Below are positions 9,002-64,000 of a stretch of 64,000 bases of DNA, one piece after another (position 1 is the first letter of the stretch; each line of letters starts with the position of its first letter). Under the pieces are notes generated by a model. That model was not told where the DNA came from and made no database searches. It saw only the letters and a program-made list of their open reading frames with translations. Origin of the DNA: Gracilariopsis chorda (lineage: Eukaryota; Rhodophyta; Florideophyceae; Gracilariales; Gracilariaceae). The stretch is taken from positions 177,826 through 241,825 of the forward strand of contig NBIV01000109.1 in NCBI GenBank assembly GCA_003194525.1, read 5' to 3'. A program made the translations under genes and the position numbers.

Positions 9002-9130
9002 CCCGGGATGTCATTAAACTCGCCCAGGCGATCGGCGGACTGGTCGCCTTCGTCGACCTGGGATGTCTCTAAAAGCGACCAGGCAGTCGGCAGACCGACG
9101 GCCCCAAGCGACCTGGGTGGCACTGTCCAG
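9000..9130 (+). repeat. 55-bp tandem repeat at head of the SINE-like insertion
   Basis: Units beginning GACCYGGGATGTC start at 9000, 9055 and (degenerate) 9110, an exact 55-bp period. Each contains ...TAAA.CG.CCAGGC.GTCGGC.GAC. The third unit diverges after GACCTGGG. It sits exactly at the 5' end of the inserted element, so it belongs to the element and not to the host gene. Confidence 0.75.
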
Positions 9131-9883: not shown

Positions 9884-9893
9884 AGATCGTTGA

Positions 9894-26686: not shown

Positions 26687-27148
26687 AGATGGATCTAAGG
26701 AAGGCGGACTGGTACCCCACAAAAATCTGTAGCGCGTGTTGTTCTGATTCTGCGTAGGCAGAGAGAGAGCTGCGTTGCCCTCAAGTCTGAGAAAGGAGGG
26801 ACCGCCTCCCGTCACATACGACATGTCCATGAACGCTTGCGTCGTTGCGAAGAGCGTATCCCGCCTGGGAATCACTGCAGAAGTAGAACTGGTCGATGAT
26901 CTCGGGATACCGTGTTTTGTGGTTGAGAACGATGAACGGAATACCAAGGATTGGTCAGACGACATTTGTGATGATGTTTTAGATTCTAAAACTGCAGAGT
27001 CCCCGAAAGAAGTCTCCTTTAACCTTATTACTCCTGAAGAGTTGATTAGCGAGCACGAGTGCCACCCGTTATGTACGCAGATTCGCCCTCGCCTCAATGG
27101 AGGATATGACTTACCTTTCTGACGAACGATCAGGGATTCCTTGTCGGG

Positions 27149-28279: not shown

Positions 28280-29734
28280 TATGGGCATACCTCCGACGGA
28301 AATCTGGACTCAGACGACCCGCTTGTGCTTCATTCTTCATCGCATCCAGCGATTCTACCGCATCCCGATAGTGATTTATCGGATTTACCGAAGTAAGCCG
28401 ATGTCCGTCTTCAGACTAGTGCCCAAATATCCCGTCTCACTTCACTCGATTCAACCCGCCATCCACTCTATTCTTTTCCCAGTTTACGCCTAAATACGGG
28501 GATGGAGGTGCAATCGCTGTCGATTCTCCCGGGTCGTCAGGGGAAACAATTCATGAGCACCAAACGATTAATCGCACATTGCGGAGCGAGGAAGTGGGAC
28601 CCTGCACGGTAAATGGGAACCCCACTAGGCAAAGCCCTCAAACAGAAGACACTGCTGTTACAGCGGCTGCGCCCGTGGCACCCCTGCTGAAATCAGGACT
28701 TTGCAGTATCGATAACACGCAAGATGTTGCTTCTCGGAGTAGTGGCGAACCGCGCCCGGTGATGACCGACCTGACTTGGGTTACCTCGACTAGGACGTCG
28801 ACCCCGATAGGGTGTACACCACGCTTTGGTGCTCGTAGTCCCTGATCGCCTGGAAGAACGAAGCTTTCGTGGAACCCTTGAAGAGGTAGAACGTTGAGAC
28901 ATGTGCTAGGGCGTGTGAAACGTTCACGCGGAACGTCTGTCACACGGCGCACAGCCGGTATACGCATTTAGACGTAAGACGCTTACAGCGTCGCGCAGCA
29001 CTGAAGTTCAGAGGTAACAGACGACGTACCCGTGTATACGACAACCCGTGGCGCCCATCGGCAAGGGTCTACCTAAAGTGGCATCGACACTTTGTGTACG
29101 TCCGGCGGCCACAGTCATCCAATCCAAATCCAGTGTGAAAGCAGTAAAGCCGGTCGATGCGCCTCCATACGCAGGGAGTGCGGCACACGAGTATCTTCCT
29201 CAAACAGTAATCCCGATCCTGTGGGGCACTAACCGAATATCGGACGCTACTGTTCGCCGGTTCACGACTCTCGGAAGCTCACTTGAAGATGTATTACTCT
29301 GAAACGCGAGTTGTATCTGGGCACACTTTCAGATTTGCGCTACGACGCGTATCACGGAAGTTACCGTTCTTCCGTTCTTCCAATTAGACGGACCTACGAA
29401 AAGTAATTTCCAGGTCCCTGGTCTCCGAGAACCGGAATACCCTCGACCAGGGTTGGAAACGAGTCCCTTGGTACCCCTGAAGGGGTCTCCATTACGGGAA
29501 TACGTCATGGGAGACGTGACATCGGACGCCTATTCCCGAGAATTCGTTATCGAACGCATCGTGCGTCACGAATATGACCCACAGGGTCAGTTTACTACCA
29601 AATCAGTTGGTATAGATACCCTCCAGAAGAGGACACGATGGAACCCATCGAACAGTTACCTATGTCTAAAGTCCTACAATATCACCGAAGGACTCGGACA
29701 TCCTTACCCGCAACGGTGGATAAAGCCCAATTAA
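28280..29734 (+). pseudogene. Copy A long linker and chromodomain
   Basis: After the GPY/F module there are about 430 codons of low-complexity, Pro/Ser/Thr/Arg-rich sequence with frame changes, and then a chromodomain: REFVIERIVRHEYDPQGQ from about 29538, continuing after a frame change near 29588 as SWYRYPPEEDTMEPIEQLP. The Trp usually found in DTWEP is Met here. Chromodomains at the C-terminus of integrases direct insertion to marked chromatin in chromoviruses. The long spacer is shared with copy B. Confidence 0.72.
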
Positions 29735-30052
29735 AGTAGAACCGTACCCAGTCCCCGAAGAGTATGAAGTGACCGCGATGCAAAGAAGCCCGAAGAAGAA
29801 AAGAAGAAGAAGAAGAACCTCACGGATGGAACAAGAAGTTGATGAACTGTAGCAAATAGAACACTACCGAATTAACGGTTATACCGGATTAACGGCTTGA
29901 AGAGGAAACCTCATGATGATGAAGAACAATATGAAGTGGAGAATGCAGAAGAGGTAGAAGATAAAAGTACGAATAACCACAAGTTTGGTTTAATCCAGAG
30001 GCTATCGCAAGATTCATCACCGATACTTGAAGGTCAGAATACTGAGCACAAG

Positions 30053-31764
30053 TTATCCCGACGAAGAGCCCGCACCAGAGTGACTACTTGACTGAGGATA
30101 GCTCGCTGCGGCGAGAGCCAGGAGCTTTCCAACATCTACCATGTCCCAAGGTTCCGAGATTCCAAGGTTTTGGAGGTTCTTGCACAATGCGATGACGTGC
30201 GCGTCCGTTACAACCTTAAGTGGCTCGTCCACCGGAGGTTGCGGCTCACTCATCGGAGTTACGAAGCCCCACCCTTCGAGAGCACCCGACTGGTTGGACG
30301 CACCAGCATTGCTCAGAATAACCGAATCCACGACCAGTCCATGGTAAAGGCCGCCACTCTCGTTGGCCTCGTCATCCATCATCGGATCATCGAAGTCGAC
30401 CGACGACTTCTAATCGCCATGAAATACGAATCAGATCGGATGACCCACTGGTATGGTCCGAGGACGTCTGCGTTGCTCGAATGCATGAGCACGGGACACG
30501 GTTGCACCCACATACGGGACGTAATAGACGAATTTTCCAGCAGTTGGATGCCGGGCACCCGAAGATTTGTCACAAAAATTTCTTGGACCCTGACCACGGT
30601 TATCCCACGGAACGCTATCCCATTTGGCCTGGTTGATCACATCCAAGATGTATAAGACTTCTTCCACGTTTTCTTGGCATACCAATGAGATGAACAGGTC
30701 GAGCAGTTTGATGATGTTCCTTACCTATGAACCAAAAGACGGTAGTTGTCATACGTTTTCCAGAGAAGGAAAATCGCTACGCGGGTAGCCTAGTCTGCGG
30801 CAATAAGCGACCAATAGCCGGATTTTGGATGATCAATGATGTGAGAACTTATATAAGTTATACAGGGAGGAAGTTCTGGGACACACCCCTTGGGTACCTG
30901 AACCTGACTCTACCACGGTGGTAACACTGCAAAGCGACCCCTGAACATTTGCAGGAGATACCGTTTGGTTTCGATAGTGGTGTATAGAATCAAATACCCA
31001 TGTCGGGAACGCACCTTGCGCTCAAACCAAATCTTCTTGAGGAATGCTGCTTGCGTTTCACAATGTTAGAGGAACCGAAACTACACAGGGATGATGGGCC
31101 TCGCCCAACTGATCATATCAGACTCGATGGTTACCTGCGTTGCGGTTTCGAACTGTGCCGTATCGAACTGGGCTAGGGTATCCCCATAGGATAGTTCGCC
31201 GTAGGTGCGATACCTCGATACGTAGAAGTCGTATTCACTGGGAATCAGATGTTGACTTGGAGTACACATGAGCTGTTTACACGCAAGTCGCGTCATTTCT
31301 TCTCGGGCCCTATCCAGGTTCTCTCCACGGCAAAGGTCTATTCTTAAAAGGTTAGGATCCAACGGGATGCATCCCCGCCAGTCGCGTAAATTGACCAAGT
31401 CAAGTGGAAGCCCACCAGGGAGAACGCCGTCGTATGCGTAGGACTGGATCAGTGGCAGGTTGAAAACATCGGACGGGTTTATGACAACCGGAGTGCCCTG
31501 AGAGGAGTGCCACGTACGGACGTGTACCGGAACGGTTATCGGAGCGTTACCATGAGGCAATGGAGCCATAAGAAACTGGCTCAGTCTAGAGGATGAAGGA
31601 GCTACACTTCCAGACTGGGAAGTGCCCGCTCTGGGGTTGTGTTGTTTGAGATTCTCTGAGTTCATTAACGGAGATGAAGAATCGGTTTCGCTGTTGTTAG
31701 TATTCGTTCGTCGCGTTATGAGTTGAACCGGAGGAAGGATGGTATCACTCATGAGGAGCTGCAT
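30053..31764 (-). pseudogene. Copy A antisense gene, degenerate
   Basis: A minus-strand pseudogene homologous along its whole length to the intact 595 aa protein at 59852-61639. The N-terminal half is still open (31081-31764, 227 codons): its YRTYGELSYGD and ISWARPII correspond to RREIGYGE and LCWERPII in copy B. The middle (30686-31080) is recognisable in translation with stops, including one in place of a Trp (SGYWSLIA...). The last third is split into frames at 30431-30685 and 30053-30382 (EEVLYILD..; DDPMMDDE; VVTDAHVIAL). It lies between pol (plus) and the polypurine tract, so it converges on pol. Function unknown; no zinc finger, protease or RT motif. Confidence 0.78.
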
Positions 31765-31822
31765 CCTTTATACCCATTTTCGTCTGCGGATCACTCGCTT
31801 TCATTGCAATGCTTCTTGGTCT

Positions 31823-31832
31823 AAGGAGGGGA
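31823..31832 (+). promoter_or_regulatory. Polypurine tract of copy A
   Basis: AAGGAGGGGA immediately precedes TGTGTAGAGCAATGCG. In LTR retrotransposons the PPT primes plus-strand DNA synthesis and sits directly before the 3' LTR. Position and polarity match copy B's tract on minus (59798-59810), giving the same order pol, antisense gene, PPT, LTR. Confidence 0.6.
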
Positions 31833-33627
31833 TGTGTAGAGCAATGCGTGTGCGTATACCCTCTAGGCGCGTTGGATCATATGACTCAATACTGAAGTGG
31901 CATCGGTTCAACTCAGGTATGAGTGGACCCTCGGAAACGATGAGTGAAATTCGATATGAGCTTTAATTGGTATTTTTGGAACCTTCGTGGGTGATTTCTG
32001 TGGTATCTGGAACAGATGGACGCGTGGAAAGCGTACGGATGTTATTCATGGCTGACATCATTCACACGTGTCGTGTTGTGCCGTGGCTGGGTGCCGCCAA
32101 GTGACACAAGTTTGCGGAACACAAGTGTGGCACACTACAGTAGTAGTATTCTTAGTTTATTGTTACCCAATAGTACTTAAGGTAGGACGGCCTTGTCGTT
32201 TCACTCTGACGTGAAGACATGCTGTGACTCGGCTCTGAATTTATCGCCTGCGCAAATTGACCAAATCCTGCTGGGGCTTCACCGCGTTCTGTCTCGTTAT
32301 ACTCACCCGCATAGTATCACCAAAAACCGCTGATCTGTATTATCCCGTTGGTTCGCCCAGTGTTCACTGCTTTTATCGTCTTGGTTACTTTCTATTGTGG
32401 GAACAGATAGCCGTTCGACTCAGTATTGAGTTTTGCCCTGCTGGCTGAACCAGCAACACCCCACACCGCCGGGTCTCTTTCAGCTTTCCGCACGACCCGC
32501 CGGGTTGTACCTTCACTTTTAGATTCTCCCCTTTCCGTTTTTTCCTTTCTGAATTCTTCGTGGACTAGAACACTGCTCACACAGACCTGTGCACTACGTT
32601 GACCAGCTGGTAACCAGATTCTCGGTATCACCTCCGTCGGTGTAGCCGGAAGCCACCTCAGTTTTACACCCAAACACCGTGTGGTACGGAGAGCCCTTTC
32701 GCTGTGCCTACCTAACAATAAAACAAGGCCGCGAACACCTTGGGAGCGTTTCCCGCCTAGGGATATTCTTCCAAAGAAATAGCCTATTCAATGCGTGTGT
32801 TGGCTGAAGCAATTGTGAAAAGCAGAGAGGAAGCCAAGAAAGAAAAGGATGTAACTGATGCGGTTGAGGACGCTATACGGCGTATAATAGGCCCCCAGCT
32901 CTGATGCTTATATAATGAAGATGTGCGAAAATCGAGTCTCTTGCGAGAAGTCTTTGTTCCTGTCCCAGACAACTTTACCTCCGGACAAGCGCTCATCTCT
33001 ACAACGATATCCTATCAGTTCTGCTTCTTGGGAAACCCAAGAAACCGACCAAAGCGCTCGAAACCGCACCCTAGGCCGTTTTCTTAGAAACCTGCACCGC
33101 ACAGCCGCGTTTCGTGCGACCAGTCCGGCTACAATGTATAATGTGACCGCCATGTCCACCAACGACCACACATCAAACGTACAGTTCACTCCCGTCCGCT
33201 CGTGCTAACCATTCCCATCTTTCCAGATTTCACACAGGCCCCTTGGCACAGTCACATACCACCTTCGTCGGGTAGTAATCCATATGGTCACTCACAGTTC
33301 CGGTCAAAATTAGGCTTCGTCTTGAAAATGGTCTCTGAAGCTCTGAGGCGGTTATCAACATACTCGAAAGAGCGGAGTTCTTACATTCAACTTCATCCAA
33401 GGGAAAATAGTCGTATAATCCCATCATGTCATCAGTGCTGCATTAGTTGCTTATAGAAACTTCGGGCCGGCAACTGCTTAATGGCTGGGTAGTCATGCGG
33501 GCCGTAGCGATATCCGGTTGTACTTGCAGCACCCACTCATCTTTACGTGTACGATTTCGACGGCTATATACTCAGTCTTCACATTCGAATACGCGCCAAA
33601 ACCATACACGTGTATTATTCAGGTTTG
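31833..33627. other. Probable copy A 3' LTR start, then unresolved sequence
   Basis: The first bases, TGTGTAGAGCAATGCG, resemble the family LTR start (TGTAGTGCAACGCCC in sense orientation), and CCCTCTAGG...TTGGATC nearby loosely follows the LTR body. The right end of this LTR could not be found. A 37-codon, highly charged open frame at 32791-32904 and other short frames have no recognisable domain. Nothing else is supported up to the transposase remnant. Confidence 0.4.
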
Positions 33628-40597: not shown

Positions 40598-42850
40598 CTA
40601 CTTTGTCAAGCCACAAAGTAATGTCAGTCTTTTGAGCTTCTCAAAGACAACAGGCTTAGTGAATATGTCGGCAGCTTGCACATCAGTCCTTATTGACTTC
40701 ATGTCAATTACCTTGGTCTCCAGCAGCTCTTTTATGTAGTGATGTTTTAGAGAAATATGCTTGTTCCTTTCCGAGACCTTCGGACTCTTCACGATCGACA
40801 AAGCAGTCGAACTGTCCGTTGCTATGGATATAGGGTACATTTGAGGTTCATCCTCCAGGACTGATTCGTTGCGTAGTTCCCGGAATATTCTACGCAACCA
40901 CATTAGTGTTTTTCCACAATATGACAGTGCAATGTACTCCGCCTCTCCAGACGACAGAGCAACAAGAGTTTGCTTCTTGGTCGTCCACATTACAGGTGCT
41001 TCGTTCACCTTTTTTAATAATCCTGTCGTAGACTTTCTCGTCTCACGACAACCGGCCCAATCTGAGTCACAGTATGCCTCCATTGGTGCTGTGTTATTAG
41101 CGGGAAAGAACAAGCAAAGACCCTTTGTACCCTTCAAGTATCTCAGTACTCTTTTCGCATGCCCAACATGCCTCATGCATGGATCATGGACCTGCCTTGC
41201 CAGCATCGAAGCGGCAAACATGATGTCTGGCCTCGATGAGACGGCTAAGTACATCAAACTTCCTACCAGTTTCCGGTAGCGGTCATGTACGCCTGATGGA
41301 ATACGCCGTTCGTCCTCTCGACGAGCTGTGATGTCACATTGTGACGGCAATGGAGTTCGAACAACTTTGGAGTTAACCAGACCATTTTCCAGCAGTATCT
41401 TGTCAATATACCTGCTCTGTTGTACCTTTATTCCGTTCTTGTCCCTCGTTATGTCAAATCCAACGAAACGTTTCGCCTCTCCAAGGACCTTAACCTTAAA
41501 GAGGTTCTGCATCTCTGTCTTGAAGTCTTCCAGAAGAGACCGGGAGTTACAAGATGTCAGTAAGTCATCAACGACCACTACGATGGCCAAGGTTCCGCTG
41601 TTGGACTTGTATATATATAGTCGGCTATCGGTGCTCGACTGCTTGAATCCCAAGCGCAATAGCTCATTGTGCATGAGAGATCCCCATATTTGACCGGCTT
41701 GTTTTGCGCCGTATATTGAATTTAGAAGCAAGCATACCTTTCCAGGAATAAATGAGGAACCAGATGCGTTTTGGGGTTGTTCCATGATTAGAGGCTCGTC
41801 TAGATCACCGTACAGGTATGCATTGCTAATATCCATAGTCTCTAGTATCAGGCCCTGAGATGCGGCCTTTGCCAACAAAAGACGAATGGTTTCAATACGG
41901 GCAACCGGGGCGTACAAGTTGTCTGGGTCGTAATCCAAGTACGGGCGTTGCAGGTCGCCCCGTGCTACGCAACGCGCCTTTGGAAGGATACGCGGAGGGT
42001 CGGAGCTTAATAATTTTGCTAAGAACCTCCATAAGAATGGAAATGGTTTCATGCCAGGTTCTCTATCGATCAGCTTCCAAGTTCCTCTTTCCACCAACGC
42101 ATCGTACTCTCTGTCGATTGCTTCTGCCCATCCTGGCATCACTCTGGCTTCTTCAAAGCTCTTGGGGACTCTGCCATCATCCCCGAGGTCTTTGGAGCGT
42201 GAGTGTGCGATAAGGCAATGAGCAAGAGAAGCGTCTAGATGGTCTTCATTATCTTCACCCATAATTTTCTCGGCTTCGTATCGTCTGAGGGACGAGAAGT
42301 CCATAAGGTCTTTGATTGAAGGGAGGGACTCCTTGGTAACCTTGAAATCTGCCTCGCGGCACTTTATTACCTTTCCCATGGATGGGATGTATATCATATA
42401 CAGTGTCCGCGGGCTTTGCATCCCCACGAAGTGTCCAGGAATAGCGCGTGGTAGGAACTTCTTATTTGTGACGGTTTCAGGCCTGTATATGAACGCGTGG
42501 CCTTCTTGCCCGAACTTCCGTAAGTTTGTGAAGTCCGGTTTTCGTCCGAACCATAAGGTGTAAGGAACCTTCATTCCTGCTCGATGATTTGGTAGGCGAT
42601 TTCTCAAGTAGTTTGCGTGTGAAATGGCTTCTTCCCATAGCTCATTCGGTAGCTTGGAGGCGAACAGGAATGTTCTAGGCATCTTCCACAAGTCTTGGAT
42701 GACTTTCTCTGCTACACCGTTCGATTGGTGTGCGTACGGTGGGGTGAACTCTAGTACTATACCATTTTCCATCGCGTATAAGACGAAATCGTCTGACCTA
42801 TTCTCACCCGCTCCGTCAAGGCGAACGCGGTACATTAGGTTGGGAGGTAG
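40598..42850 (-). pseudogene. Copia integrase core end, reverse transcriptase and RNase H
   Basis: An open run of 745 codons plus five codons back to the TAA. It contains VRLDGAGENRS (second Asp region), AHQSNGVAEKVIQDLW (catalytic Glu), MPGWAEAIDREYDAL, LETMDISNAYLYGDLDEP, CLLLNSIYGAKQAGQIW, the RT active site AIVVVVDDLL (VDD form), VGSLMYLAVSSRPDIMFA, and RNase H with YCDSDWAGCRETRKSTTG, LSSGEAEYIAL and KHISLKHHYIKEL. All catalytic motifs are present. The end, KLKRLTLLCGLTK, is the usual copia C-terminus. Confidence 0.92.
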
Positions 42851-44005
42851 TTAGGTTTCCGCGCGAGCCTTGTACCAGCGGACAGATTCAAAGAATTGTT
42901 TCTTCTTACTTAGAAAGTATATTGAGCTTGCCCTTGTGTTGTCGTCAATGAGGACTTGCATATACTTCGATCCTTGTAAAGAGGTTGGGGTTATGGGTCC
43001 AGTGAGGTCGGTGTGCGTTAACTCCAAAGGTCTCTGCACTACCGAGTTTGATTGCCGAAGTGGAGCACGCTTGGTGCCGGCGTCAATGCACGGAGTGCAT
43101 ATGACGTTGTTGACTTCGTCTGGGGAGATTTTAGGTACCCCTTGACACAAATCAATGCATGTCAAGAGTTTCTCTCTTCCAGGGTGTCCGAGTTTCTCGT
43201 GCCAATCCTTGGCTCTGTTTTCAGGTGCATGTGTTGCAGCTTGTACCTGTGGTGGTGATACGGGGCTCGATAGGGGATAGAGTCCGTCCTTTGGGGTGGA
43301 GTGTTGTATGACTTGGCCCGTTGTGTGGTCTTTAATTACGAATCCGTTTGAGTATTGCACCTCGACGTAATTCACCAGGACAGATAAGGATACCAAGTTA
43401 GAGTCGAAGGTTGGGGTATGTTTGGCGGGTAACATGAGTCCGGTTCCCAAGGGTAGCTTTATTTTTCCACAGCCTACGATCTCTGACTGGTGGTCGCAAG
43501 TTTTTACGGTTTGCGGAGGTGTTTGGTGATATTCCCAGAACAACGATTTGTCCTTGATGAAAACATGACTAGCCCCAGAGTCCAGCCATGTTGGGGTTAT
43601 GTTTTCCTGGTGGAGACTGGCATTAGCTAATGCTATGAATCCACGGTAGTGGTTCCTTTCTCTGTCTCCGTGGTGGCGGTTAGCGTTTGGTCGCCCTTGG
43701 TTGTGGGCGTCGGTGAAGTTGTTAGAGTCCCAAGCTCGATTGTTGTTGCGTCCTTCGCCTTTGTTATGTTTATTATTATTGGAGTTTTTATTGTTGGGCT
43801 GTTGTTGGTTTTTATTTTTCTTGCGCCAACATTCGGCCCTGATGTGGCCTATGCGTCCACAATTCCAACATACAACTCCCTTCTTGTTCCCTTTTGCATG
43901 CTGCTTGCGTCGGGTTGTAGTCTTCTTCGCAGCGGGGTAAGGGTGAATGCCATCTTTCTTGGCTTCTGTAGCCTTCGTGGTATATGTCGATGCCCGATGA
44001 ACCCG
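42851..44005 (-). pseudogene. Copia zinc knuckle, protease and integrase N-terminal half
   Basis: In frame with gag: a CCHC knuckle CWNCGRIGHIRAEC (about 43830-43870), an Asn/Gln/Arg-rich linker, the protease active site TWLDSGASHVF (about 43570-43600), then the integrase zinc-binding and GAG-pre region (WHEKLGHPGREKLLTCIDL, VICTPCIDAGTKR) and the start of the core (ELTHTDLTGPITPTSLQG with the first catalytic Asp). The frame is interrupted by TAA at 42851-42853 just before the second core Asp. Confidence 0.88.
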
Positions 44006-44584
44006 TCAGTCCATTTCGGATCGCACAAGCGAAACGACTTGATCATATTCCATGTTGGTTGCGTCCGCCAATAATGTGATTGCCATTAGTGAGTCTGGCA
44101 AGGTACGGAGCAGAGTCGCAGTTCGCTCTTTTTCCGTGAGTGGGTCACCCAGTCTAGCAAGTTCTAAGTAGGTTGTCTCCAACTCGAGTAAATGTCTCTG
44201 TACGTCGTCGCCATCCTTGAATTTCAAGGTGCTTAGCTTTTGGCGGAGGTTCAATTTGGATTGTATGTTGTCCTTCTTATATGTAGACTCGAGTTTATTC
44301 CATACCTCCAAAGCAGAGCAGTGTTCTCTTTCGAGTAGTTCCGAAACTGCGACGATCGGCTGTGTGTCAAGGTTTTGGACGATGGCCGATCTTGCCTTTC
44401 GATCGGCGTCGTCCCATCTCTTTCGAGCTGCAGCGGGTCCTTCATTTGGACGAGGTTCCGAAAGCACGAATAATGATTGGAGGGAGTGCATGAGATCCGT
44501 AATGTATATGCGCCAAGTGTAGTAATCGGCGCCCCCTTTTAGACGGGGTATACGTTTATTTTCTTGGTAAGTCTCAGAGTCCAT
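44006..44584 (-). pseudogene. Copia gag
   Basis: 192 codons from ATG 44584. Blocks: YYTWRIYITDLMHSLQS, DRKARSAIVQNLDTQP, ALEVWNKLESTYKKDN, LRQKLSTLKFKDGDDVQRHL and the closing LLRTLPDSLMAITLLAD. This is the standard UBN2-type copia gag. The frame is ended by TGA at 44006-44008, but the same frame continues into a basic stretch and a zinc knuckle. The TGA could be a mutated CGA or a site for reduced pol expression; nothing nearby shows which. Confidence 0.88.
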
Positions 44585-45191
44585 CGTGGAGTATCACTCA
44601 ACGCGAGACTAAAGGAGACTGGCAGATAGAATTCTTCACCGGTCCCCTACCGGTTGAGGGATCCTTCTACTACTTTTGCGTAGCCGGGTCCACTGGCAGG
44701 AGATACTGTCTCCGGTTCCCTAAAGGTCAGACCTCTGGCTCCGAGTAAGACTCTCTCGGTGAGATGCGATTTCAGCGGCCCGTCCAAGTTCTGCACAATC
44801 CAGAACGAAGGTGCGTGCAACCTACGGAATGTCCAGGAGAGGTTACTAACAACGTGATATGTGTTCACCAGTTGGCCTCCTCTGATTCCTTACGGCTACT
44901 TGCACGGCGATCTTGCTCCTTGAAACGTCCTTGTTTTCACTAAGGTCCGGGCCGAACGACGAGACACCCTGTCCCCTTACGAACAGCTACACTCACCCCA
45001 GCTGAGCCAGTTATACGGCAAGTGCGCTATCCGCTGGCTTAGTTCAAGTTCCCAGTCGATTCCCAACCGGTATTCGGCTTGCGAACCTTAGCTCAGCCAA
45101 GTGCTAACTTCCCTGAAGGGTTAATAGCCGCGGAGGCCTTATTCAGGACTTCATATAATAGTTCACCGTCTGTGTTCGTGGTCCAATGATG
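44585..45191. other. Copia leader / left flank of the large DNA transposon
   Basis: No gene. It should contain the copia 5' leader and perhaps remnants of its LTR. Several inverted repeats are visible (for example GTTCT/AGAAC near 44790-44810), but no TG...CA boundary or primer-binding site could be established. The right edge abuts the terminal inverted repeat at 45192. Confidence 0.4.
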
Positions 45192-50436: not shown

Positions 50437-52794
50437 TTACACTAATTTTTTGAGGGTACCGAGGTGCGAAGAGTGGTAGGGTCCGAGGACGGTGGTGGCT
50501 GTGAGTTTGAAGGATCTGATCTGTCGTTCGAGTGATTTGAGAGAGTCTTCGGTCCATTCGGAAGTGGAGTTGTATCGCATGGCGTAGAGAACGAGATCTG
50601 TGTACTTGGTGAAGACGGAAGTGATTGGGGAGGAGTCGATTTCGTTGCAGCATCTGTCGAAGAATGCTCCGATGAAGGGGAATACCATGTCGAGTGCGCG
50701 GTAATCTTTTGCTTCGAGCATTCCACGGAGTCCTTCTGTGGTGAAGAAGCCGTTAAGAGCTTGAGCGTTGTCGGAGGTGGAGAAGTCTATGTGGAGTCCA
50801 GTTGCAGGGGAATCTTTTTCGATGGCCGCAAGAATGGAGTTGGAGTGTTTGAGGATGGAGGTGCGGATGGATTGGAAGGATCTCTTGGATTCGCTGGGAC
50901 CGACAATGGAGAAGAGGGAATCGGATCGGAGACGTTCGATTGCGGTGGCTTTGATGAGTTTAGAGACGCCGAGGTGGAAGTTATGCAGTGGCTCGAAGGC
51001 GAAGATGTTGTAAGAAGAGAGAAGCGGAGTGATGTTGAAGATGGGGTATGATTCGAAGAGAGAAGTGTACTTTGCGAGGGAGAGAGAATGAAGTGCTGTT
51101 GCTGCCTCTTCTTTTTTGGTGCGTGCCACTTTTGGTTTCCGGGCGAGTTGCGCTTCCTCGGATTCGCGGAGAAGGCAGGTGTGCTGTCTGCGATTGGTTC
51201 GAGTTTGGAGTTGTGTGCGGAAGGGGATGGGATCTGTATTGAGGAAGAGGTGTTCCCGAGGGACGGTGCATCTCGGGCAAGGGTGCTGCGGCCGTGTTCC
51301 GTGGGAGATGGCGAGGATGTCCTTTGCTTCGGGGATGTCTGCGCAATAGCTGGCGAGGATGGGGTGGCAGTGGCGGAGGACACCGTGAGCGTCACGGAAG
51401 GAGAATCCTGGGAGCGCAGAGGTGAGGAGTGGGTTGAGGATGGTAGAGATGGCGCGCTGAATGAGGTTCATTTTGGTCTCGCGTGGGATGTTGGAGGATG
51501 ATTTCGGGACGTAGTCGCCGCCGTCGTCGAAGGCGGTAAACGGGGAGAAGGAGGTTGGAAGGTATCCGAGGAGTGTGAGATTTTCGGATATACACTTTCG
51601 GCGGAGGGCATCGGAGAAGTTGAGAAACGTGACGTGGAGGGGGTAGGAATTGACGGAGGAGCTTTTCAGGGAGGTTGCGGACTTGTCCGAGTAGAGCTGG
51701 ACGAGGCCGATGAATGATTCGATACCGGTTTCCTGGGGGGTGTGCCAGACGATGTCATCGACGGGGGACTGCATAATTTCCTGTTTGATGGCTGGGACGA
51801 CTTTCTTTCCGAGGGCTGCAGCCATGGGATGTGCGAAAGCCGGGTGACCAGAAGACGAAGAAGATGAGGAAGATTGAGATACCGGCTGGAAGAAGGTGTT
51901 GTTGAGGTGTGCGAGTGCGAGTTGTTGCTTGAGGACGTCGATGGCACGTTTCTGGAAGAGGGTTGCGGAGAAGGTGTTGCGCTTGTCTGTGATGGTGGAA
52001 GGGATGAAGCCGTTGGAGCTGATGCGTTGCTTGAAGAGGTCCTCTTGCAGTGCGAGGCACTGCCTGGCGGAGGAGATGGAGGTCTGGAAGGAGGACTTGG
52101 AGAAGTCTGGATGGTTGAGGATGGAGATGAGCTCGTCTGCTTTGCGGGTGCTGACGGAGGATGCGATGGAGGAGATGTAGAGGACGAGTTGTTCGAGATG
52201 AGGGTTGTCGGCGAGAGGGGAAGGGGAACGAGAAGGGGGCGGGAGAAGGGGGTTTGAGGAGGAGACGGAGCCGATGGCGTGACTTGCGATATGGTAAGCG
52301 TCTTGGGTTTGAAGAGAGAGGGAAGCCTGTTGAAGTTCATATGGATCATCATCGGCGAGGGGGACGTTGTCGGAAGGACGGTGAGAGGGAAGGGGAGGAG
52401 AATTGATGGAGAGGTTGGGAACGGATTTTCGCTTCTTGGTCCTGGGAGGGAACTGAACTGGAGCGGTGGCTGTGGAGGAGGAACGCTTGTTGGCGGTGAG
52501 GCGATGGGGGCACCTGCGTTGGTGACTCTGGAGAGAGTATGTGGTGCGGCCGTGGAAGGAGCAGCGAGGGTAGCAACAGGGGAACATGGTGCGGGAAGGA
52601 GAGTTGAAGGATTGGAAGGAGAAAGGGGAGCAAAGGGGTTGTTGGAGAGCGAAATGCGGGAGCGTAATTATTATGGCGCACGGGGATGAAGTGGAGCAGG
52701 TGATGCCGAGCGTTTTGCGCTGGCTCGTGGACTGGTGCATGCTATGCAAGGCCGCAGACACTGACAACGAGTGAAGGATAGCGAGGGCTATCAT
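50437..52794 (-). CDS. Plavaka-like transposase (CACTA superfamily)
   Basis: 785 codons from ATG 52794; a more likely start is the ATG at 52587, which leads straight into a zinc-finger-like MFPCCYPRCSFHG...SHQRRCPH. The central region carries LVQLYSDKSATSLKSSSVNS with YPLHVTF and LLGYLP, the signature block of Plavaka transposases (SDKT...YPVYLT...GYLP; its Asp belongs to the DDE site). It continues with HPILASYCADIPEAKD and HPCPRCTVPREHL, matching the ...YPILA.Y..D.PE......CPRC block, and then FEPLHNFHLGVSKLIK. The N-terminal third is Ser/Pro-rich and disordered. Compared with family members of around 900-1,000 residues the C-terminus looks short. It should bind the subterminal repeats and catalyse cut-and-paste transposition. 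Confidence 0.8.
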   Translation of the reverse strand: MIALAILHSLSVSAALHSMHQSTSQRKTLGITCSTSSPCAIIITLPHFALQQPLCSPFSFQSFNSPSRTMFPCCYPRCSFHGRTTYSLQSHQRRCPHRLTANKRSSSTATAPVQFPPRTKKRKSVPNLSINSPPLPSHRPSDNVPLADDDPYELQQASLSLQTQDAYHIASHAIGSVSSSNPLLPPPSRSPSPLADNPHLEQLVLYISSIASSVSTRKADELISILNHPDFSKSSFQTSISSARQCLALQEDLFKQRISSNGFIPSTITDKRNTFSATLFQKRAIDVLKQQLALAHLNNTFFQPVSQSSSSSSSSGHPAFAHPMAAALGKKVVPAIKQEIMQSPVDDIVWHTPQETGIESFIGLVQLYSDKSATSLKSSSVNSYPLHVTFLNFSDALRRKCISENLTLLGYLPTSFSPFTAFDDGGDYVPKSSSNIPRETKMNLIQRAISTILNPLLTSALPGFSFRDAHGVLRHCHPILASYCADIPEAKDILAISHGTRPQHPCPRCTVPREHLFLNTDPIPFRTQLQTRTNRRQHTCLLRESEEAQLARKPKVARTKKEEAATALHSLSLAKYTSLFESYPIFNITPLLSSYNIFAFEPLHNFHLGVSKLIKATAIERLRSDSLFSIVGPSESKRSFQSIRTSILKHSNSILAAIEKDSPATGLHIDFSTSDNAQALNGFFTTEGLRGMLEAKDYRALDMVFPFIGAFFDRCCNEIDSSPITSVFTKYTDLVLYAMRYNSTSEWTEDSLKSLERQIRSFKLTATTVLGPYHSSHLGTLKKLV

Positions 52795-52926
52795 GTTTTG
52801 TAAACTCTAATGTATTTCCTATATATGTATTTATCTGAGCATCCTATCCTTCTATTTGAAGGGGCAGTTCCGGTGGTCCGGTCAGATTTTCAATCTCACG
52901 TTCACATGTGAAGGTATGTAGTAGTG

Positions 52927-52959
52927 GAGTCTGGACTCCACTTCGCGGAGTCCGGACTC
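52927..52959. repeat. Subterminal hairpin, right
   Basis: GAGTCTGGACTCC, loop ACTTCGC, GGAGTCCGGACTC: a 13-bp stem with one G-T type mismatch, about 195 bp inside the right end of the transposon. It is the counterpart of the hairpin near the left end. Confidence 0.85.
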
Positions 52960-53131
52960 GGTTTTTGGTCCGAAATAACTTGGAAATGTGAAGTGCTTTA
53001 CTAGTTTATACTTTCAAAAAACTAGCAGTGTTGAATGTGTGAAAATATTTTGATGGAAATTGATTCATTCAAAAGTGGGTTTTAAGAGTCGATATCCGTC
53101 CATTTCAATTCTTTCCCTTTTTATTGTCAAA

Positions 53132-57600: not shown

Positions 57601-58987
57601 ATGAGGGAAGATTGGGATGATGTAGTGCAACGCCCTCAAGGAGGGATTCTAGGTACTTGATCGTTTTCCCGATATTATCGGTTGTGTAGTGTGTATATGA
57701 ACTACGCCCCACAATGGTGGATATGGACACGTGGAACACGTTTTTGGGTCAATTGGCGGTTGGCCACAGTAGTGGATGTTGCCACGAAATGTGGAGTATT
57801 TTAGCTAGTATTATTTATTATTTTCACACCCATTTCTGGGAAGCTAGTACTTAGTGCGACGGCGCACTGCCGTCGCACCAGTAAACCTTCTCCAACAAGG
57901 GACCCAAACCTGGGGAATTGGCTCTAGGTGTTGCCGCTTGCGCGCGTACTCTACTCCTCCTTGGAGGGAAACGCCGTAAACCACGGGACATCTAACCCCC
58001 TTGCACATCTAAAGGGACCCATCACTGGGAGTATAATTGTTCCAATTGCATTGGTGTTTCGCCCTGTATAGGGATATTGTTACTGGCATCGCCGTATCCG
58101 TTCGTCGCTCTCGCGACTCACATCGTCCTCTCTTCCTCCTCTTCGCCCTTCCTTTTTCCCCTTTTTAGGGTAGCACCTCCTGCTATCCGCGGCCCGCGTG
58201 TGCGTATCCGCTCACACACCCCCACTTACGTGGAAACATACCTCTAGTGACGACCACACCCCGCTCATGCGAATACCGATTCTTCGCGTTCAACTCCCTG
58301 CGCGAGTCGCGACAGGTGTCCCTGGTCTTACAAACCGGCTTCGCGGTGACACTTCTGGGAGGGCTCTACCCAACTGGGTTCACCTCGGGAGAGGAAGATC
58401 CCGAACGTCTTTCGGTATTTTTCTCCTTTAGGGCATTGCACCACAGATGAACCTACGTCTGTTGTTGATGTGAATAAGATTCGCGTACCGTTGTTGACTT
58501 CAACAAACTACTTTCTCTGTTCACGCAAGGTCGAATTGGTGTTGCGCAGCAAAAGACTTTGGAGCTTTGTAGATGGTTCCCAAACCCAGCCAGACGATGA
58601 TAGTGACGAAGCTTTGAAGTCTAATCGTCATAACGAAGTCGGGTGATCTACCATATTTCTTTTGGTTCATTACTCATGCGCTGCGCCTGGTATGGACATG
58701 CAAGACCCCTTCGTTGTCTGAAAATCCCTCAAAAAACATCATCAGACCGTATTGCAGGCTCGTAGAGACGGTCTGCTGGATCGCTACCAGGCCACTAACA
58801 TGAAGCCTAGTAAAACTGTGCTTGAGCTTAGGGCTCGTTTATCCACATTAGAATCTCAACTTGGCGGGATTGGGTACATAGCATCTGAGTCAGAGCAGCT
58901 GCGTGCTTTGCTGCAGGGTTTACTTACACGAACGAACAGACACTTGTGTGATTTTAGCCACCCATGTGCTTTCTTACGTGCTTCAAG
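57601..58987 (+). pseudogene. Copia-type gag split by a solo LTR
   Basis: ATG 57601 opens a gag (MREDWDE) that is cut after seven codons by the solo LTR at 57621-58445. Beyond the second copy of the GATGA duplication the same reading frame continues: VDVNKIRVPLL, then a copia gag N-terminal block (STNYFLCSRKVELVLRSK) and WSFVDGS. Stops follow near 58645, and another part (LLDRYQATNM, STLESQLGGIGY) continues to 58987, where the LTR of copy B begins. Two successive insertions therefore landed in one old copia element. Only the gag remains. Confidence 0.75.
57621..58445 (+). repeat. Solo LTR, copy 3 (hairpin-rich family)
   Basis: 825 bp in the inverse plus-strand orientation to the other copies, from TGTAGTGCAACGCCC to GGGCATTGCACCACA. 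The target duplication GATGA is perfect (57616-57620 and 58446-58450). Removing the LTR and one duplication restores the copia gag frame, which confirms the boundaries. Confidence 0.95.
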
Positions 58988-59794
58988 TGTGGTGCAATGC
59001 CCCAAAGGGGAAAAACACCGAAAGACGTCCGGGATCTTCCTCTCACGAGGTGAACCCAGTTGGGTAGAGCCCTCCCAGAGGTGTCACGGCGAAGCCGGTT
59101 TGTAAGACCAGGGACACCTGTCGCGACTCGCGCAGGGAGGTGAAGGCGAAGAATCGGTATCCGCGTGAGCGGGGCGTGATCCTCAGTAGAGGTATGTTTC
59201 CACGTAAGTGGGGGTGTGTGAGCGGATGCGCACACGAGGGCCGCGGATAGCGGGAGGTGCTACCCTAAAAAGGGGAAAGAGGAAGGACGAGTGGGTCGCG
59301 AGAGCGACGAGTAGATACGGCAATGCCGGTGGACAGGACTCCCTATACAGGGCGAAACACCAATATGATTGGAACAATTAGTACTCCCAATGATGGGTCT
59401 CCTTTAGATGTGCAAGGGGGGTGAACTTCCGTACACTACGGTGCTTCCCTCCAAGGAGGAGTTGAGAACACGCGGAGGCGGTAAAGCTCAGAGCCAATTC
59501 CCCAGGTTGGGGTCCCTTGTTGGGGAAGGTTTACTGGTGCGACGGCAGTGCGCCGTCGCACTAAGTACTAGCTTCCCAGAAATGGGTGTGAAAATAATAA
59601 ATAAAATTAACTAAAATACTCCACATTCCGTGGCAACATCCACTACTGTGGCCAACCGCCAATTGACCCAAAACCGTGTACCACGTGTCCATACCCACCA
59701 TTGTGGGGCGTAGTTCATATACACACTACACAACCGATAATATCGGGAAAGCGTTCAAGTACCCAGAATCCCTCCCTGAGGGCGTTGCACTTCA
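58988..59794 (-). repeat. 3' LTR of copy B (LTR copy 4)
   Basis: 807 bp from TGTGGTGCAATGCCC to GGGCGTTGCACTTCA in plus reading, inserted in copia gag. On the inner side it adjoins TATCCCCCCCCTTAAG, the complement of a polypurine tract. On minus the order is therefore tract then LTR, making this the 3' LTR of an element running on minus. It holds about 26 short perfect hairpins. The 5' LTR lies outside the window, so the target duplication cannot be checked. Confidence 0.9.
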
Positions 59795-59797
59795 TAT

Positions 59798-59810
59798 CCC
59801 CCCCCTTAAG
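59798..59810 (-). promoter_or_regulatory. Polypurine tract of copy B
   Basis: On minus it reads CTTAAGGGGGGGG, followed by ATA and then the LTR start TGAAGTGCAACGCCC. This fixes element polarity as minus. Confidence 0.75.
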
Positions 59811-59851
59811 ACGGGAAAACGACCGCGGGCGCGGAGGATTCCCAGACGAAA

Positions 59852-61639
59852 ATGGGTGATAAAAGCGCGTGCTTTGTCTCCGGTTCTCCGGTAAATCCCT
59901 CTGCACCAGAGTCATCAAGCACACAAACGACAACAACAGCCACCCTCCAAAATGGACAAATGAACGACGACAACCATATCAACAGCCACAGCCAACCGCC
60001 GAGACTTCTCGGGCGGTACACCACCGGTTTCCGGTCAGTTCCCCTGCCTCAGGGCGATCGAAATCCGGTACAACCGGGGAATATGGCTGCTGCAGCCGAC
60101 CATCCCTTCGCACTACCCCCTTCGGTGGTGTCCTCCGGAACCACTCCGGTGTCCAACTGGCCAACCTACAACACCCTGGTGGGGCTCAACCCGATGAATC
60201 GGAATCACGCGTCGCGCCTGCGCCTTGCCCCGTGGTTTCACCCGGTCGCTGTCCTCAATGAGGGGTTGGTCACCGCTTATGCGGATGGTTCAGACACCCT
60301 TCCGGGGGATCTGCCCAGAGCAGTCACCACATCGTGGGATTGGCGTCACCGGATTGCGATTCCGCGTCACCACCTCCGAAGAAACTCGGGCGAGACCGTC
60401 GCTGCGGCGCAGACCGCGTTGACGCGGATGGCGTACCAACGGCAGAGCCGGGCTCCATTCGATGTACCGGTCCCACCGGAGTTTGGCTTCGACGTTAGCT
60501 ACTTCCGCACTCGCAGGGAGATTGGGTACGGCGAGAACCTGTTCCGCCTCGAGACCCTCGCTTGGAGGAATTTCCCCGCAGCGCGGCAAGAGGCCCTTTG
60601 CTGGGAGCGACCGATTATTCGGGCGGAGTTCAGGTACCTTCCCCGGCAATACCGGTCCAACTTTCTCCAAAACTTCATCCGCTACGAGCGGCGTTGGCGA
60701 TCCCGATTCGGGTACTTTATCCCGTATCAGAACGTGGAGATAGAGCGGATTGCGCCGCCTCACCGACTAGGTCGGTATGTAGCACTCCCCGAGTGGTGGC
60801 GCTTCCATGAAGCCTGCCGGGGGTGCTACATAGAACTCCCGCCGGTACTTACGTACCTCGGTTCGCTGCTCATGCAGGATCCCCGGTCGGGGTTGTGGTC
60901 CGTAGTGGTTACGGAGTGGGCGGCCCGCAGTGCGGCTTATATCCTCAACGAGGCGTACGACCAGTATCGTCTCTGGTTCCTTCAACCGCGTGTGCGGGCA
61001 GCGATCCGAAACCTGGATCTTCGCATCCCCCTTGGGAGCCAGGCCAACAATGAAGAGGTCCTCCAATTACTTGGGTACATCGACAGCGTTAGCTGGAGTG
61101 AGGTCCCGCTGGAGCAAAGCGGTCGTCTGGATGGCGGCAGCGGTAACACCGGTGGTCCGGGACTCGGTAGAAACACCGCCCTTGCGGGGGATTTTATCTA
61201 CTTCGACCCCTGGGAGTTCCGGGAAATTTCCTCCGAGGAGGCGCGAGAGCTTCGCGATACGCCCCGGCATGTGCCGGAAGACCACCCGGTGGGGTACGTC
61301 GATTCTGACGACTACTACCGCGCATACGGCGGGGATGACCCAATGGTCGATAACGAACCGGAAGAACCCGGGGAGATGGACGTAGAGGAAACCGGCGCTA
61401 GCGCGGAAGCTTTCCCAGAGGGGGTATCTCCGGCCGAGCCGGCTGCTGACCCTTCAACGGCAAGTGCCGGACCTTCTATCCCCAGCGGGGTGACGGCGAA
61501 TGAAAACGAAATCATCGCACGTTTCCTCCGGGGTGCCGGTCTTAGCGCTGCCGAGGTATCGGGGGATGTCACCACCATGGCGGACGCGTTGCCCTACCGC
61601 CTTGCTGGGGGTTACGCCCCGGACGATGGGGGTGAGTGA
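59852..61639 (+). CDS. Convergent antisense gene of the Ty3/gypsy family, unknown function
   Basis: An intact 595-codon ORF from ATG 59852, on the strand opposite to pol. The N-terminus (1-115) is Ser/Thr/Pro/Asn-rich and disordered. A globular, Arg/Trp/Tyr-rich middle (about 115-420) includes WDWRHRIAIPRHHLRR, RREIGYGENLFRLE, LCWERPIIRAEFRYLP, FGYFIPYQNVEIERI, WWRFHEACRGCYIELPP and EWAARSAAYILNEAYDQYRL. An acidic tail (about 470-540, DSDDYYRAYGGDDPMVDNE) ends with a short helical NEIIARFLRGAGLS segment. There is no zinc knuckle, transmembrane helix or enzyme motif. Full-length homology to the decayed copy at 30053-31764 implies it is part of the element. An AATAAA at 61727-61732 follows its stop, and the LTR upstream could drive it in antisense. 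Gag-like, regulatory or envelope roles are all unproven. Confidence 0.82.
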   Translation: MGDKSACFVSGSPVNPSAPESSSTQTTTTATLQNGQMNDDNHINSHSQPPRLLGRYTTGFRSVPLPQGDRNPVQPGNMAAAADHPFALPPSVVSSGTTPVSNWPTYNTLVGLNPMNRNHASRLRLAPWFHPVAVLNEGLVTAYADGSDTLPGDLPRAVTTSWDWRHRIAIPRHHLRRNSGETVAAAQTALTRMAYQRQSRAPFDVPVPPEFGFDVSYFRTRREIGYGENLFRLETLAWRNFPAARQEALCWERPIIRAEFRYLPRQYRSNFLQNFIRYERRWRSRFGYFIPYQNVEIERIAPPHRLGRYVALPEWWRFHEACRGCYIELPPVLTYLGSLLMQDPRSGLWSVVVTEWAARSAAYILNEAYDQYRLWFLQPRVRAAIRNLDLRIPLGSQANNEEVLQLLGYIDSVSWSEVPLEQSGRLDGGSGNTGGPGLGRNTALAGDFIYFDPWEFREISSEEARELRDTPRHVPEDHPVGYVDSDDYYRAYGGDDPMVDNEPEEPGEMDVEETGASAEAFPEGVSPAEPAADPSTASAGPSIPSGVTANENEIIARFLRGAGLSAAEVSGDVTTMADALPYRLAGGYAPDDGGE

Positions 61640-61830
61640 AACCTCTAGTCCAGTTTCCTGGTTCTTCTTTCCCTGGCTATGCCAGTTAGTGTAGTGTAGT
61701 ATTGTGGGGAGCTAGCTGCTCCCTTGAATAAACTTTCCCGTTTAGAACGGTGCTTCTCGGTTGAGTTCCCCGTCTTCGACGGACCTTGTCTTGTTATCCT
61801 TTCCTTTCGCTCTCCGCTCGCGCGGCAACG
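61640..61830. terminator. Convergent 3' ends with poly(A) signal
   Basis: A 191-bp spacer between the stops of the antisense gene (plus) and pol (minus). It contains AATAAA at 61727-61732 on plus, directly after an imperfect hairpin GGGAGCTAGCTGCTCCC. This is likely the 3' processing region of the antisense gene. Confidence 0.5.
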
Positions 61831-64000
61831 TTACCCAACTTGGGCATTTACCAGCGTGGCTGGAGCTGCAGTTCCCGTTTGACGGTGGTATCGCACGACC
61901 TGCGACCGTGGGAGGTGTTCCATTGGCTCCCACGTATCCCCACTGGGGTCGTACCCGTACCAGCGGACGCGGTATTGTAGAATACCATCCTGGTCCCAGG
62001 TGTGTCCGACAAGTCGGTCTACTACGAACTCTCGTTCGTAGACCTGCCGGCCGTGCCGGGTGGTGGTTGTAATCCCTGGCGAGGGTTGCCCGCGGTGCGG
62101 TATAATGTCCCTTAGCAGGGTGTTCGGCGATAACTCCGACGTTGCCGTGCGCTGTCCTAGTGGCCGCTGCTCATGCGGGAAAATATCCCTCAAGAGGGTG
62201 TGTGGTGCCACGGTTTTCACCGGCAAGTCGTTCCCCAGAGGGGTGTCGTTGTTTCCGTCTTCACGGTAGGCCGGGCGAACCGCCAGTCGGCGGGGGACTT
62301 GGGTTCCGCCTTCGCGGTTGAGCGCACGAACCGCGAGTTTGCGGGAAGATGACCGCTCCTGCGGGATCGGCATTTCCACAATCCCCTGGGGGGTCCCGTG
62401 CGACACGGTGATTGGGTGGCAAACCGCCTCCCTGCCAGGCGCACGAGTGCTCTGCACCATACGTTCCGGCGATGCCGTGGTGTCCCCGGCTACTGACGGG
62501 TTGCCTGGGGCTAACTCCGGTACACCGGTATTTTGGTCAAAATTCCCCTGTGGGGGGTTCCGGGCAGGTGCCGATGACACCCTTTTCAGGGGAATTGCCG
62601 CTGAGCGCAGTGCACCATCTCCGTGAGGAGGAGCAGCGTCCGGTACGACCGGTTTCGAGCGTGCGATGGCGCGCGTTATTCCCGAGTTCCTCGGTTCTTC
62701 GCCACAGCGATGCGGGGGTTGGCGCAAATTATTCCCCGTAGCGGGGGCTTTGATTCCGTCAACGACGGGAGGCGTTTCCGGTGCTTGCGAGCCAGGGCTT
62801 AAAGCTTCGACTGCAGCTTGGCCGCCTTTTTCCCCAAGAGGGGTGTGGGTATTCCCCTGTGAGGCCGGCGTATCTGGGCGCCCCTTCTCCGCAGGGCTCG
62901 GGTCTGATCGACCTGATTGAACCGCTTCCGCGGGGACTTCCGCCAACGGCGGCTTCGAGGCATCGGGCGATTGCCTTTCCGCTGCTGCGGTATTGGAGTG
63001 AGGCTTCTCGTTTTCCCGGGACAAACGGTGTATTTGCCGCTTTTGCAGGGCCTGTGCGTCTGGTTCCTGTTGCACAGCACTGCCCGGGAACGGGGGATTA
63101 GTGTCGCGTGACATACTCCGTGCTCCACGGTCAGTGTTCCGTATGTTACGGTGTGTTTTCCCGTTGCGACGGTGATATCGTTCCTCGAAAACGAGTGTTC
63201 TCCTCCCCTCCCTTAGACGGAGCGGCGGGATAAGGGATAACATTCCCCGCCTGGCGGTATAGATGCGCGCCAGTGGGGCAGACGTGGTAGGGGCGGGCGC
63301 TGAGGGGCCCGAATTACCCGGCTGAGCCGGTGAGTCCGACAGAGTCGGTAGGTCTGAGAGTCCCCGGCTGGGGTGTGGTAGTACCGTAGGTCTAGTACTC
63401 CCGGATTGTTCCGGTGTAGCGGAGTCCGTAGAAACGGGGTTGCCTGGATCCAGGACTACCTCTGACGAGGGAGGAGGGGCGAGGACAACACGATCACGGG
63501 AAATCCGTTCCGTGCGTGTCCCCCATCTCTACCACGACAGTGTCGGTGTTAACAGAGATCACCTTGAAGGGTCCATCCGCCACAGGCGAGAGTTTGTGAC
63601 GCTTCTCCCGTTCCGGGTTGTAGTATTCCTTCCTGATTGAAGACGTAGTTATTTGCCCGAATCGGGGATGGTTTTCCTCGCACGCGAGCGTCAAAATCCC
63701 GCTTGTAAGCGGCTTGGGCCCGTGCCATAGACTTCCGCGCAGCGGGGACCAGCTTGGAAAAGCCATCGCTTCCATTGCTGCCGGTAGATACCACAGATGG
63801 GAAATTGTCCAAGGTAGCTTGGGGTTCCAGCGCCACAGGCGGGGGTGTTCTAGATAGAACTAACTCGAATGGCGAAACTCCGGTAGTCCGGTGTACCTGC
63901 GTATTGTACGCGTAGGTTACCGCATCAGCGTAGAGATCCCAATTCGTTGGGTGGTCAGCGACGTAGGAACGTAACGCCGCGAGTAACGTCCGGTTAAACC
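61831..64000 (-). pseudogene. Copy B pol C-terminal part: integrase, GPY/F, long linker, chromodomain
   Basis: From the window edge: the integrase core end (FNRTLLAALRSYVADHP, YAYNTQVHRTTGVSPFEL), then KRDFDARVRG, a 1-nt insertion near 63636-63641, and KEYYNPEREKRHKLSPVADG with GPFKV (GPY/F). A second 1-nt shift lies near 63500-63510. The frame then stays open to 61831 through about 480 codons of Pro/Arg/Ala-rich, hairpin-encoded linker and a chromodomain at about 61879-62040 (EREFVVDRLVGHTW, YRVRWYGYDPSGDTWEP). Chromodomains tether integration complexes to modified histones. The linker contains short repeats such as LAVRALNREGG/LAVRPAYREDG. The frameshifts could also be sequencing errors in homopolymer-poor but hairpin-rich DNA. 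Confidence 0.82.

Follow-up and report, generated by a model that had tools for sequence, protein, structure and literature searches.

Small hairpins spaced along chromodomain Ty3/gypsy retrotransposons of the red alga Gracilariopsis chorda

The element at the end of the contig

The 64,000-nucleotide stretch analysed here, called the window below, was taken from the red alga Gracilariopsis chorda (genome of 91.3 Mb in 1081 contigs), and lies at the end of contig C109 (NBIV01000109.1). The sequence from 58988 to 64000 belongs to a Ty3/gypsy chromovirus, of which it forms the 3' part, with gag-pol on the minus strand. The original prediction had claimed that coding as well as non-coding DNA of this long terminal repeat (LTR) retrotransposon is constrained to a regular array of small hairpins, and our analysis bears this out: chromodomain Ty3/gypsy elements bearing an antisense open reading frame (ORF) are tiled with hairpins, which occupy LTRs, gag, pol, the antisense ORF and the spacers. 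The window copy belongs to the family termed A and has the following parts.

58988-59794, minus strand: LTR of 807 bp (3' relative to gag-pol), with 28 stems of loop 3-5
59795-59851: spacer of 57 bp, with 1 stem against 0.6 expected, too short to judge
59852-61639, plus strand: antisense ORF of 595 amino acids between pol and the 3' LTR, with 52 stems against 20.5 expected
61831-63243, minus strand: chromodomain ORF (C-terminal part of pol) with a match to Pfam Chromo
63244-64000, minus strand: more of pol, with the C-terminal integrase part at 63615-63998 and five stops in the single frame tried

A complete copy of 11,510 bp (C28), whose LTR starts lie 10,703 bp apart, is flanked by a 5-bp target-site duplication, as read from its flanks. 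The Pfam domains RVT_1, RT_RNaseH, H2C2 and rve were detected in this copy and Chromo in that of the window, so that the features of a Ty3/gypsy chromovirus are present: reverse transcriptase, RNase H, integrase, a chromodomain after the integrase, LTRs and the target-site duplication. Our genome searches scored the best 40 of 1780, 109 of 1209 and 150 of 2616 candidates. Among the best 40 of 1,780, the LTR search gave matches of 100% after rounding at 40 places, of which the window itself holds one, and a match of 90% at one place. The antisense ORF has few homologues (five proteins in one search, seven in another), and those with a named source all come from Gracilariopsis chorda and Gracilaria domingensis. 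None of the seven homologues gave a significant Pfam match, and no relative of the antisense ORF was found among viral contigs or in the PDB.

Density and geometry of the hairpins

Unless stated otherwise, we counted non-overlapping perfect stems of at least 4 bp with loops of 3-5. There are 158 such stems in 58988-64000 against 54.4±5.7 in 100 dinucleotide shuffles (z=18), and 369 in the C28 copy against 117.5±9.7 in 20 shuffles, where every full 500-bp bin is in excess (11-21 stems, about 4-6 expected). The LTR with its 28 stems (8.3 expected) and the antisense ORF share this excess with 61640-63243 (52 against 17.0) and 63244-64000 (25 against 8.2), in agreement with the claim that the pattern continues through the coding regions. 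For the LTR, about 26 stems had been predicted where about a dozen would be expected; with stems of at least 4 bp and loops of 2-6 we find 29, against 11.5±2.5 in 100 dinucleotide shuffles. Two clusters that had been singled out are likewise present, and one longer stem stands apart.

60841-60960: example run of six lattice hairpins (60844, 60866, 60881, 60899, 60925, 60943)
62205-62345: example run in which the sister subfamily A2 has altered linkers and loops, intact stems and one compensated pair
59537-59561: stem of 10 bp with a 5-nt loop, the longest in the LTR, its size unlike the 4-5 bp lattice units

A single 8-bp stem had been reported for the LTR; its longest stem is the one of 10 bp, and an 8-bp stem lies at 62022. 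The 10-bp stem was found unaltered in an A2 LTR. Long stems (at least 6 bp, loop 2-8) are barely in excess (12 against 8.8±3.3).

In six ORFs, synonymous codons were shuffled so that protein and codon usage were preserved. The observed stem numbers exceed these controls with z values of 6.6 for the antisense ORF, 6.8 for the chromodomain ORF, 7.6 and 12.4 for two pol parts, 10.5 for gag and 7.4 for the antisense ORF of the related family C. The stems in the ORFs are built by synonymous codon choice (z 6.6-12.4), and the hairpin starts follow no codon phase common to all six. In the antisense ORF the stems cover 0.36, about a third of the sequence.

Elsewhere in the window, excess stems are found in three A2 LTRs (76 against 23.2) and in an older relative (103 against 52.0), whereas another gypsy element (54 against 51.5) and the remaining 41.7 kb (453 against 423.4) lie near expectation. 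The two kinds of shuffles, proposed beforehand as a refuting test, do not reproduce the density. An artefact of composition or codon usage is rejected by the shuffles, and a property of the whole genome by the near-expected counts in most of the window and in loci lacking the lattice. A mild excess was also seen in a copia element at 40598-44600 (51 against 36.6). Unrelated to the lattice families are a high count at 52001-53000 (14 against 6.3) and a low one at 3001-4000 (3 against 10.7).

The hairpin unit of family A measures 11-13 nt and consists of a stem of 4-5 bp, a loop of mostly 3-4 and a stem foot CC..GG. The excess is found in the classes stem 5/loop 3 (28 against 3.5), stem 4/loop 4 (51 against 12.7) and stem 4/loop 3 (31 against 13.1). 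In 58988-64000 the first stem base is C in 127 and the second in 115 of the 158 stems, and a whole copy holds 57, 103 and 81 four-pair CC..GG units of length 11, 12 and 13, respectively. Inner pairs and loops vary freely, and the base composition of the loops is near even. The emphasis placed on GNRA tetraloops is not supported: counting both strands, GNRA describes 12 of the 156 loops of four bases, which is nothing outstanding.

The hairpin centres lie about 20 bp apart in a quasi-periodic manner; their number dips near 30 and rises again at 38-44. The spacing given in the original prediction was 20-30 bp. Compared with random placement, the 366 hairpins of a longest-first count show 164 centre gaps of 16-25 (118.1±8.3 expected), 20 of 11-16 (54.5±6.5), 62 of 25-35 (79.7±7.3) and 63 of 35-46 (50.2±6.3). 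Weak stems in the middle of the 34-46-nt gaps are not found beyond chance (8 of 71 against 5.6).

The extension of the stems follows a rule set by the loop. Given a CC foot and at least three pairs, the probability of a further pair is 0.73 where a loop of 3 would remain, 0.76 for a loop of 4, 0.73 for a loop of 5 and 0.20 for a loop of 2 or 1; for any foot, the values are 0.49, 0.50 and 0.45 against 0.23 and 0.18. In the controls, a pool of eleven gypsy loci free of the lattice and, from the window, 19 kb, the probability is 0.23-0.30 for loops 2-6, the CC-foot subset there being small and uneven (0/17, 6/26, 10/22, 13/33 and 13/27 for loops 2-6). The same break below loop 3 is seen in family C and in the old AC lineages, and in a weaker form at loop 2 in L077 (23 of 51). 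Since pairing stops where the loop would fall below 3 nt, physical hairpins of single strands are maintained. Outward, the stems are extended in 25 of 241 cases in family A, less than one in four, in 34 of 110 in family C and in 12 of 65 in the old AC lineages.

Distribution among families and conservation

The relatives within the window are three LTRs of the sister subfamily A2 and the older element.

807-1631, plus strand (as aligned to 58988-59794): A2 LTR with the same hairpins
25861-26686, plus strand: A2 LTR
57614-58445, minus strand: A2 LTR
26687-32200 (outer limits approximate): older relative with foot AC..GT

A pol piece of the older relative (27110-28549) is 52% identical in amino acids, and a homologue of the antisense ORF lies at 30347-31482 on the minus strand. 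The foot CC..GG is common to A and A2. In the older L014, L035 and L042 the AC foot occurs 28, 32 and 28 times (4.4, 4.3 and 5.8 expected), and L077 shows CC 20, TC 20 and AC 15 times, with 2.3-3.1 expected for each. In family C, whose antisense ORF has 38% of its residues identical to that of A, 45 of the 214 stems in 5.4 kb have CC at positions 1-2, and 64 have it at positions 2-3; among the 32 four-bp stems of its antisense ORF, position 1 is free and C is found second in 26 and third in 24. The hairpin places of A and C are not significantly shared (243 columns against 206.8±23.2); hairpin form and density persist between the two families, and the places turn over.

All of the 30 loci cut out for an antisense-ORF search lie above expectation (ratio 1.15-2.31), 29 of them with z>2. 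Of the 30 loci cut out for an integrase-domain search, 26 are without excess (ratio 0.89-1.22) and the remaining four (1.31-2.09) hold an A2 LTR; the 26 include many copies of few families, and the apparent absence of the antisense ORF from them was judged by eye from coordinates. Pieces of A-type LTRs are included in the loci L019, L028, L029 and L030. Among the elements, the range of the antisense ORF matches that of the lattice. At L074:5448-6255 an A-type LTR (97.8%) adjoins the antisense ORF of another family and is probably an inserted solo LTR.

To judge conservation, LTRs of 13 A and 9 A2 copies were compared over 803 columns with stems taken from either reference copy; the partial copies L019, L028 and L029, same-place duplicates and columns with fewer than 8 A or 6 A2 letters were left out. 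Of the 150 private changes, 54 hit a stem, which agrees with chance (shift null 52.1±5.9). Of the 31 fixed differences between A and A2, only 3 do so (null 10.8±3.4, with a value this low in 0.25% of the shifts; Fisher p 0.003), although these differences represent no more than 11 events, including two large ones, which makes the effective sample small. Where a polymorphism is shared by copies of one subfamily, it lies in a stem in 9 cases and elsewhere in 37. Since the fixed differences avoid the stems and the private ones do not, selection is favoured over a mutational generator. By this comparison of aligned copies, the LTR stems are shown to be conserved between the subfamilies and to decay after insertion, and the hairpins seem to have been kept by evolution.

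A second comparison used four fast-diverging blocks in 6.3 kb of A and A2, two of which lie in the LTR.

59255-59515 (approximate place; alignment columns 268-406 and 421-548): two fast-diverging LTR blocks with stems kept

In these blocks, which were picked by their divergence, 5 of 119 stem columns are changed compared with 63 of 261 others; because two of the four lie within the LTR, this test and the one of fixed and private changes have changes in common. At 59255-59515 and about 62209-62290, A and A2 diverge strongly amid near-identical surroundings, possibly by recombination with another subfamily. Outside the blocks, and counting against the explanation favoured below, stems (58 of 1799) and the rest (131 of 4124) are changed equally. 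This equality is expected if most single-copy differences post-date insertion, and by itself it lends no support.

With stems from either copy, 63 of 1918 stem positions differ against 194 of 4385 elsewhere (p 0.038). The corresponding counts are 17 of 535 against 66 of 1127 in non-coding DNA (p 0.021), 20 of 467 against 60 of 1080 at third codon positions (p 0.32) and 26 of 916 against 68 of 2178 at codon positions 1-2 (p 0.73), and chance stems with longer loops change at a rate of 0.045-0.060. Subsets matched by base oppose each other (C/G sites 61 of 1477 against 179 of 2262; A/T sites 54 of 493 against 176 of 2284) and are confounded with composition; we rely on the fixed/private test and the fast-diverging blocks. 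A test that took its stems from a single copy (36 of 1698 against 187 of 3905, also by codon position) was withdrawn as biased, since a change in the defining copy drops the stem from its class. In the 6.3 kb a single compensated hairpin was found (CCGT/ACGG to CCGC/GCGG, at 62205-62345), and the older relics L035/L042/L043 and L014/L019/L028, swamped by decay, show no clear covariation.

What may read the hairpins

Our leading explanation, which we hold tentatively, is that the hairpins are many repeats of a single degenerate site at which a nucleic-acid-binding protein encoded by the element attaches to the genomic RNA or to single-stranded complementary DNA (cDNA). Defined size, spacing, family-specific foot and free loop would point to recognition by a factor that varies with the family, hence an element protein, and the coverage of the whole length suggests that the genomic nucleic acid plays its part as a complete molecule. 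The putative protein would coat, condense or package the genomic RNA or single-stranded cDNA with one unit per about 20 nt, and the stem foot would be the code that it recognises. Candidate readers are Gag, in whose translation we read what we take to be a CCHC-like knuckle, and the product of the antisense ORF. The molecule carrying the hairpins is possibly the genomic RNA, the first-strand cDNA or an antisense RNA.

Several observations weigh against this explanation. No conserved loop motif and no dominant loop class were found in the hairpins, unlike in known packaging signals, and the N-CC-N foot of family C is a preference and not a rule. The link between lattice and antisense ORF may reflect common descent alone. 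RNA folding is only mildly favoured: mean z values for the sense and antisense strands are -1.19 and -1.06 in family A and -0.35 and -0.14 in family C, and two control stretches give 0.02 and -0.18. Of 366 hairpins, 185 appear in predicted folds, compared with 52 of 123 in a shuffle. Finally, the gag-pol strand shows no excess of G.U pairs (17 against 16.8). On the complementary strand, near-hairpins in which G.T replaces one of the two inner pairs number 36 against 19.2, mainly in the antisense ORF and the 3' pol part. A similar tendency is seen in A2 (27/9.8 against 15/9.8), whereas the asymmetry is not clear in family C (27/18.4, 23/15.6) or in the old AC lineages (19/10.0, 16/10.7).

We consider it rather doubtful that the lattice is, beyond this, a genome-wide self-recognition code in which each family's own foot (CC, mostly N-CC, AC) is read by its own protein. 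If it were, related families in one genome would each confine packaging or copying to nucleic acid of their own, and this would be the first dispersed hairpin code in LTR retrotransposons, its letters changed between lineages and codon choice steered throughout.

It is also conceivable, though unlikely, that a general ordered structure of the genomic RNA is kept for the timing of reverse transcription or translation, for dimerisation or for stability, and that the foot is a mutational or compositional habit of the family. In RNA viruses, genome-scale ordered RNA structure is spread over the whole genome through coding regions, and here, too, coding and non-coding parts are covered and the mean folding z of family A lies below that of the two control stretches. 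Family C, however, retains its stems at z values of -0.35 and -0.14, the unit, whose foot is fixed and whose stem is limited to 4-5 bp, is narrower than stability requires, and the sense strand has no G.U excess. Since folding energies are only mildly low, what is kept seems to be the hairpins and their family-specific foot, not stability itself, and the earlier suggestion of genomic RNA folding survives in modified form.

We likewise regard it as improbable that the hairpins, with no dedicated binding protein, shield RNA or cDNA of the element from silencing or nucleases, for instance through poor loading of small interfering RNAs or poor target access. Small RNAs have a length near 20 nt, which the spacing resembles; the pairs are almost purely Watson-Crick, and the palindromic form gives a hairpin in both strands. 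Such evasion does not explain why the foot is family-specific and why stems of family A are rarely extended outward, and other young gypsy families of the genome manage without hairpins. If true, it would be a novel means by which a transposon withstands silencing.

A mutational process without function, in which template switching during reverse transcription keeps writing quasi-palindromes, had also been proposed and now appears very unlikely. It would account for perfect Watson-Crick arms and for hairpin places not significantly shared between A and C. We reject it as the main driver because fixed LTR changes avoid stems and private ones do not, and because the spacer is inverted in only 1 of 21 loop-only changes; the capped stem length and fixed foot speak against it as well. 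Two-fold symmetric sites read in double-stranded DNA, for instance by a dimeric regulator, would fit the strand symmetry and a spacing near two helical turns, but the inner bases vary and yet stay complementary, and complementarity ends where the loop would be below 3 nt; this loop-size rule on the next pair makes them highly improbable, and we reject them. Chance or base composition (GC is 0.59 in this stretch and 0.47 in most of the window) deserves practically no credence in view of the dinucleotide shuffles, the codon shuffles and the loop-size rule.

For dispersed binding sites of an element protein, the nearest known principle is probably, by analogy, that of the dispersed packaging signals of RNA viruses, described for MS2, satellite tobacco necrosis virus (STNV), parechovirus and hepatitis B virus (HBV) (PMC4751978, PMC3593212, PMC5431903, PMC7612645, PMC6281560). 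As far as these accounts go, both systems have many small dispersed stem-loops, coding parts included, with a degenerate common motif. The motif stated for HBV lies in the loop, whereas in the lattice the loop is free and the stem foot is the shared part; many dispersed, selected stem-loops are thus found here, and a shared loop motif is not. The lattice further differs by its density of one hairpin per about 20-30 nt and by its occurrence in an LTR retrotransposon.

Among retroelements, the genomic RNA of Ty3, itself a Ty3/gypsy element, is structured as a mosaic of stable and dynamic regions, and the published account consulted contains no hairpin lattice (PMC11381356). Plant Retand elements carry antisense ORFs between pol and the 3' LTR for which nucleic-acid binding is suspected (PMC11963269). 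Position and orientation agree with the ORF at 59852-61639 (plus strand, pol on minus); according to the same source, Retand elements are non-chromoviruses with a TRP28 domain, whereas here pol has a chromodomain and the antisense ORF has no significant Pfam match. Perfect inverted repeats within coding sequence that leave protein function intact are described for mitochondria of Nematomorpha, there as palindromes of up to 284 bp (PMC6649704), compared with the 4-5 bp stems at fixed spacing (longest 10 bp) in a nuclear retroelement. Short inverted repeats in coding DNA also arise as template-switch quasi-palindromes (PMC8604942), from which the lattice differs by its rare spacer inversion. As had been supposed, we found no description of a lattice of hairpins, either for LTR retrotransposons or for elements of red algae, in the open-access literature, most subscription papers lying outside this scope.

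With about 370 hairpins per copy, there is an apparent second code across several coding regions and non-coding DNA, to which gene annotation is blind. If it is a dispersed recognition code, the choice of its own genome for packaging by a retroelement becomes testable with several natural dialects in one host.

Two further observations concern other sequences. The ORFs of the host region at 5302-10865 contain repeats that we take to resemble calcium-binding RTX repeats, perhaps of bacterial origin. On the contigs C15, C509, C10, C573 and C516, matches to one element recur at constant steps of about 6.0, 6.3 and 5.7 kb (on C15 at 287199, 293216, 299233 and 305253), which suggests tandem arrays of LTR elements with common LTRs.

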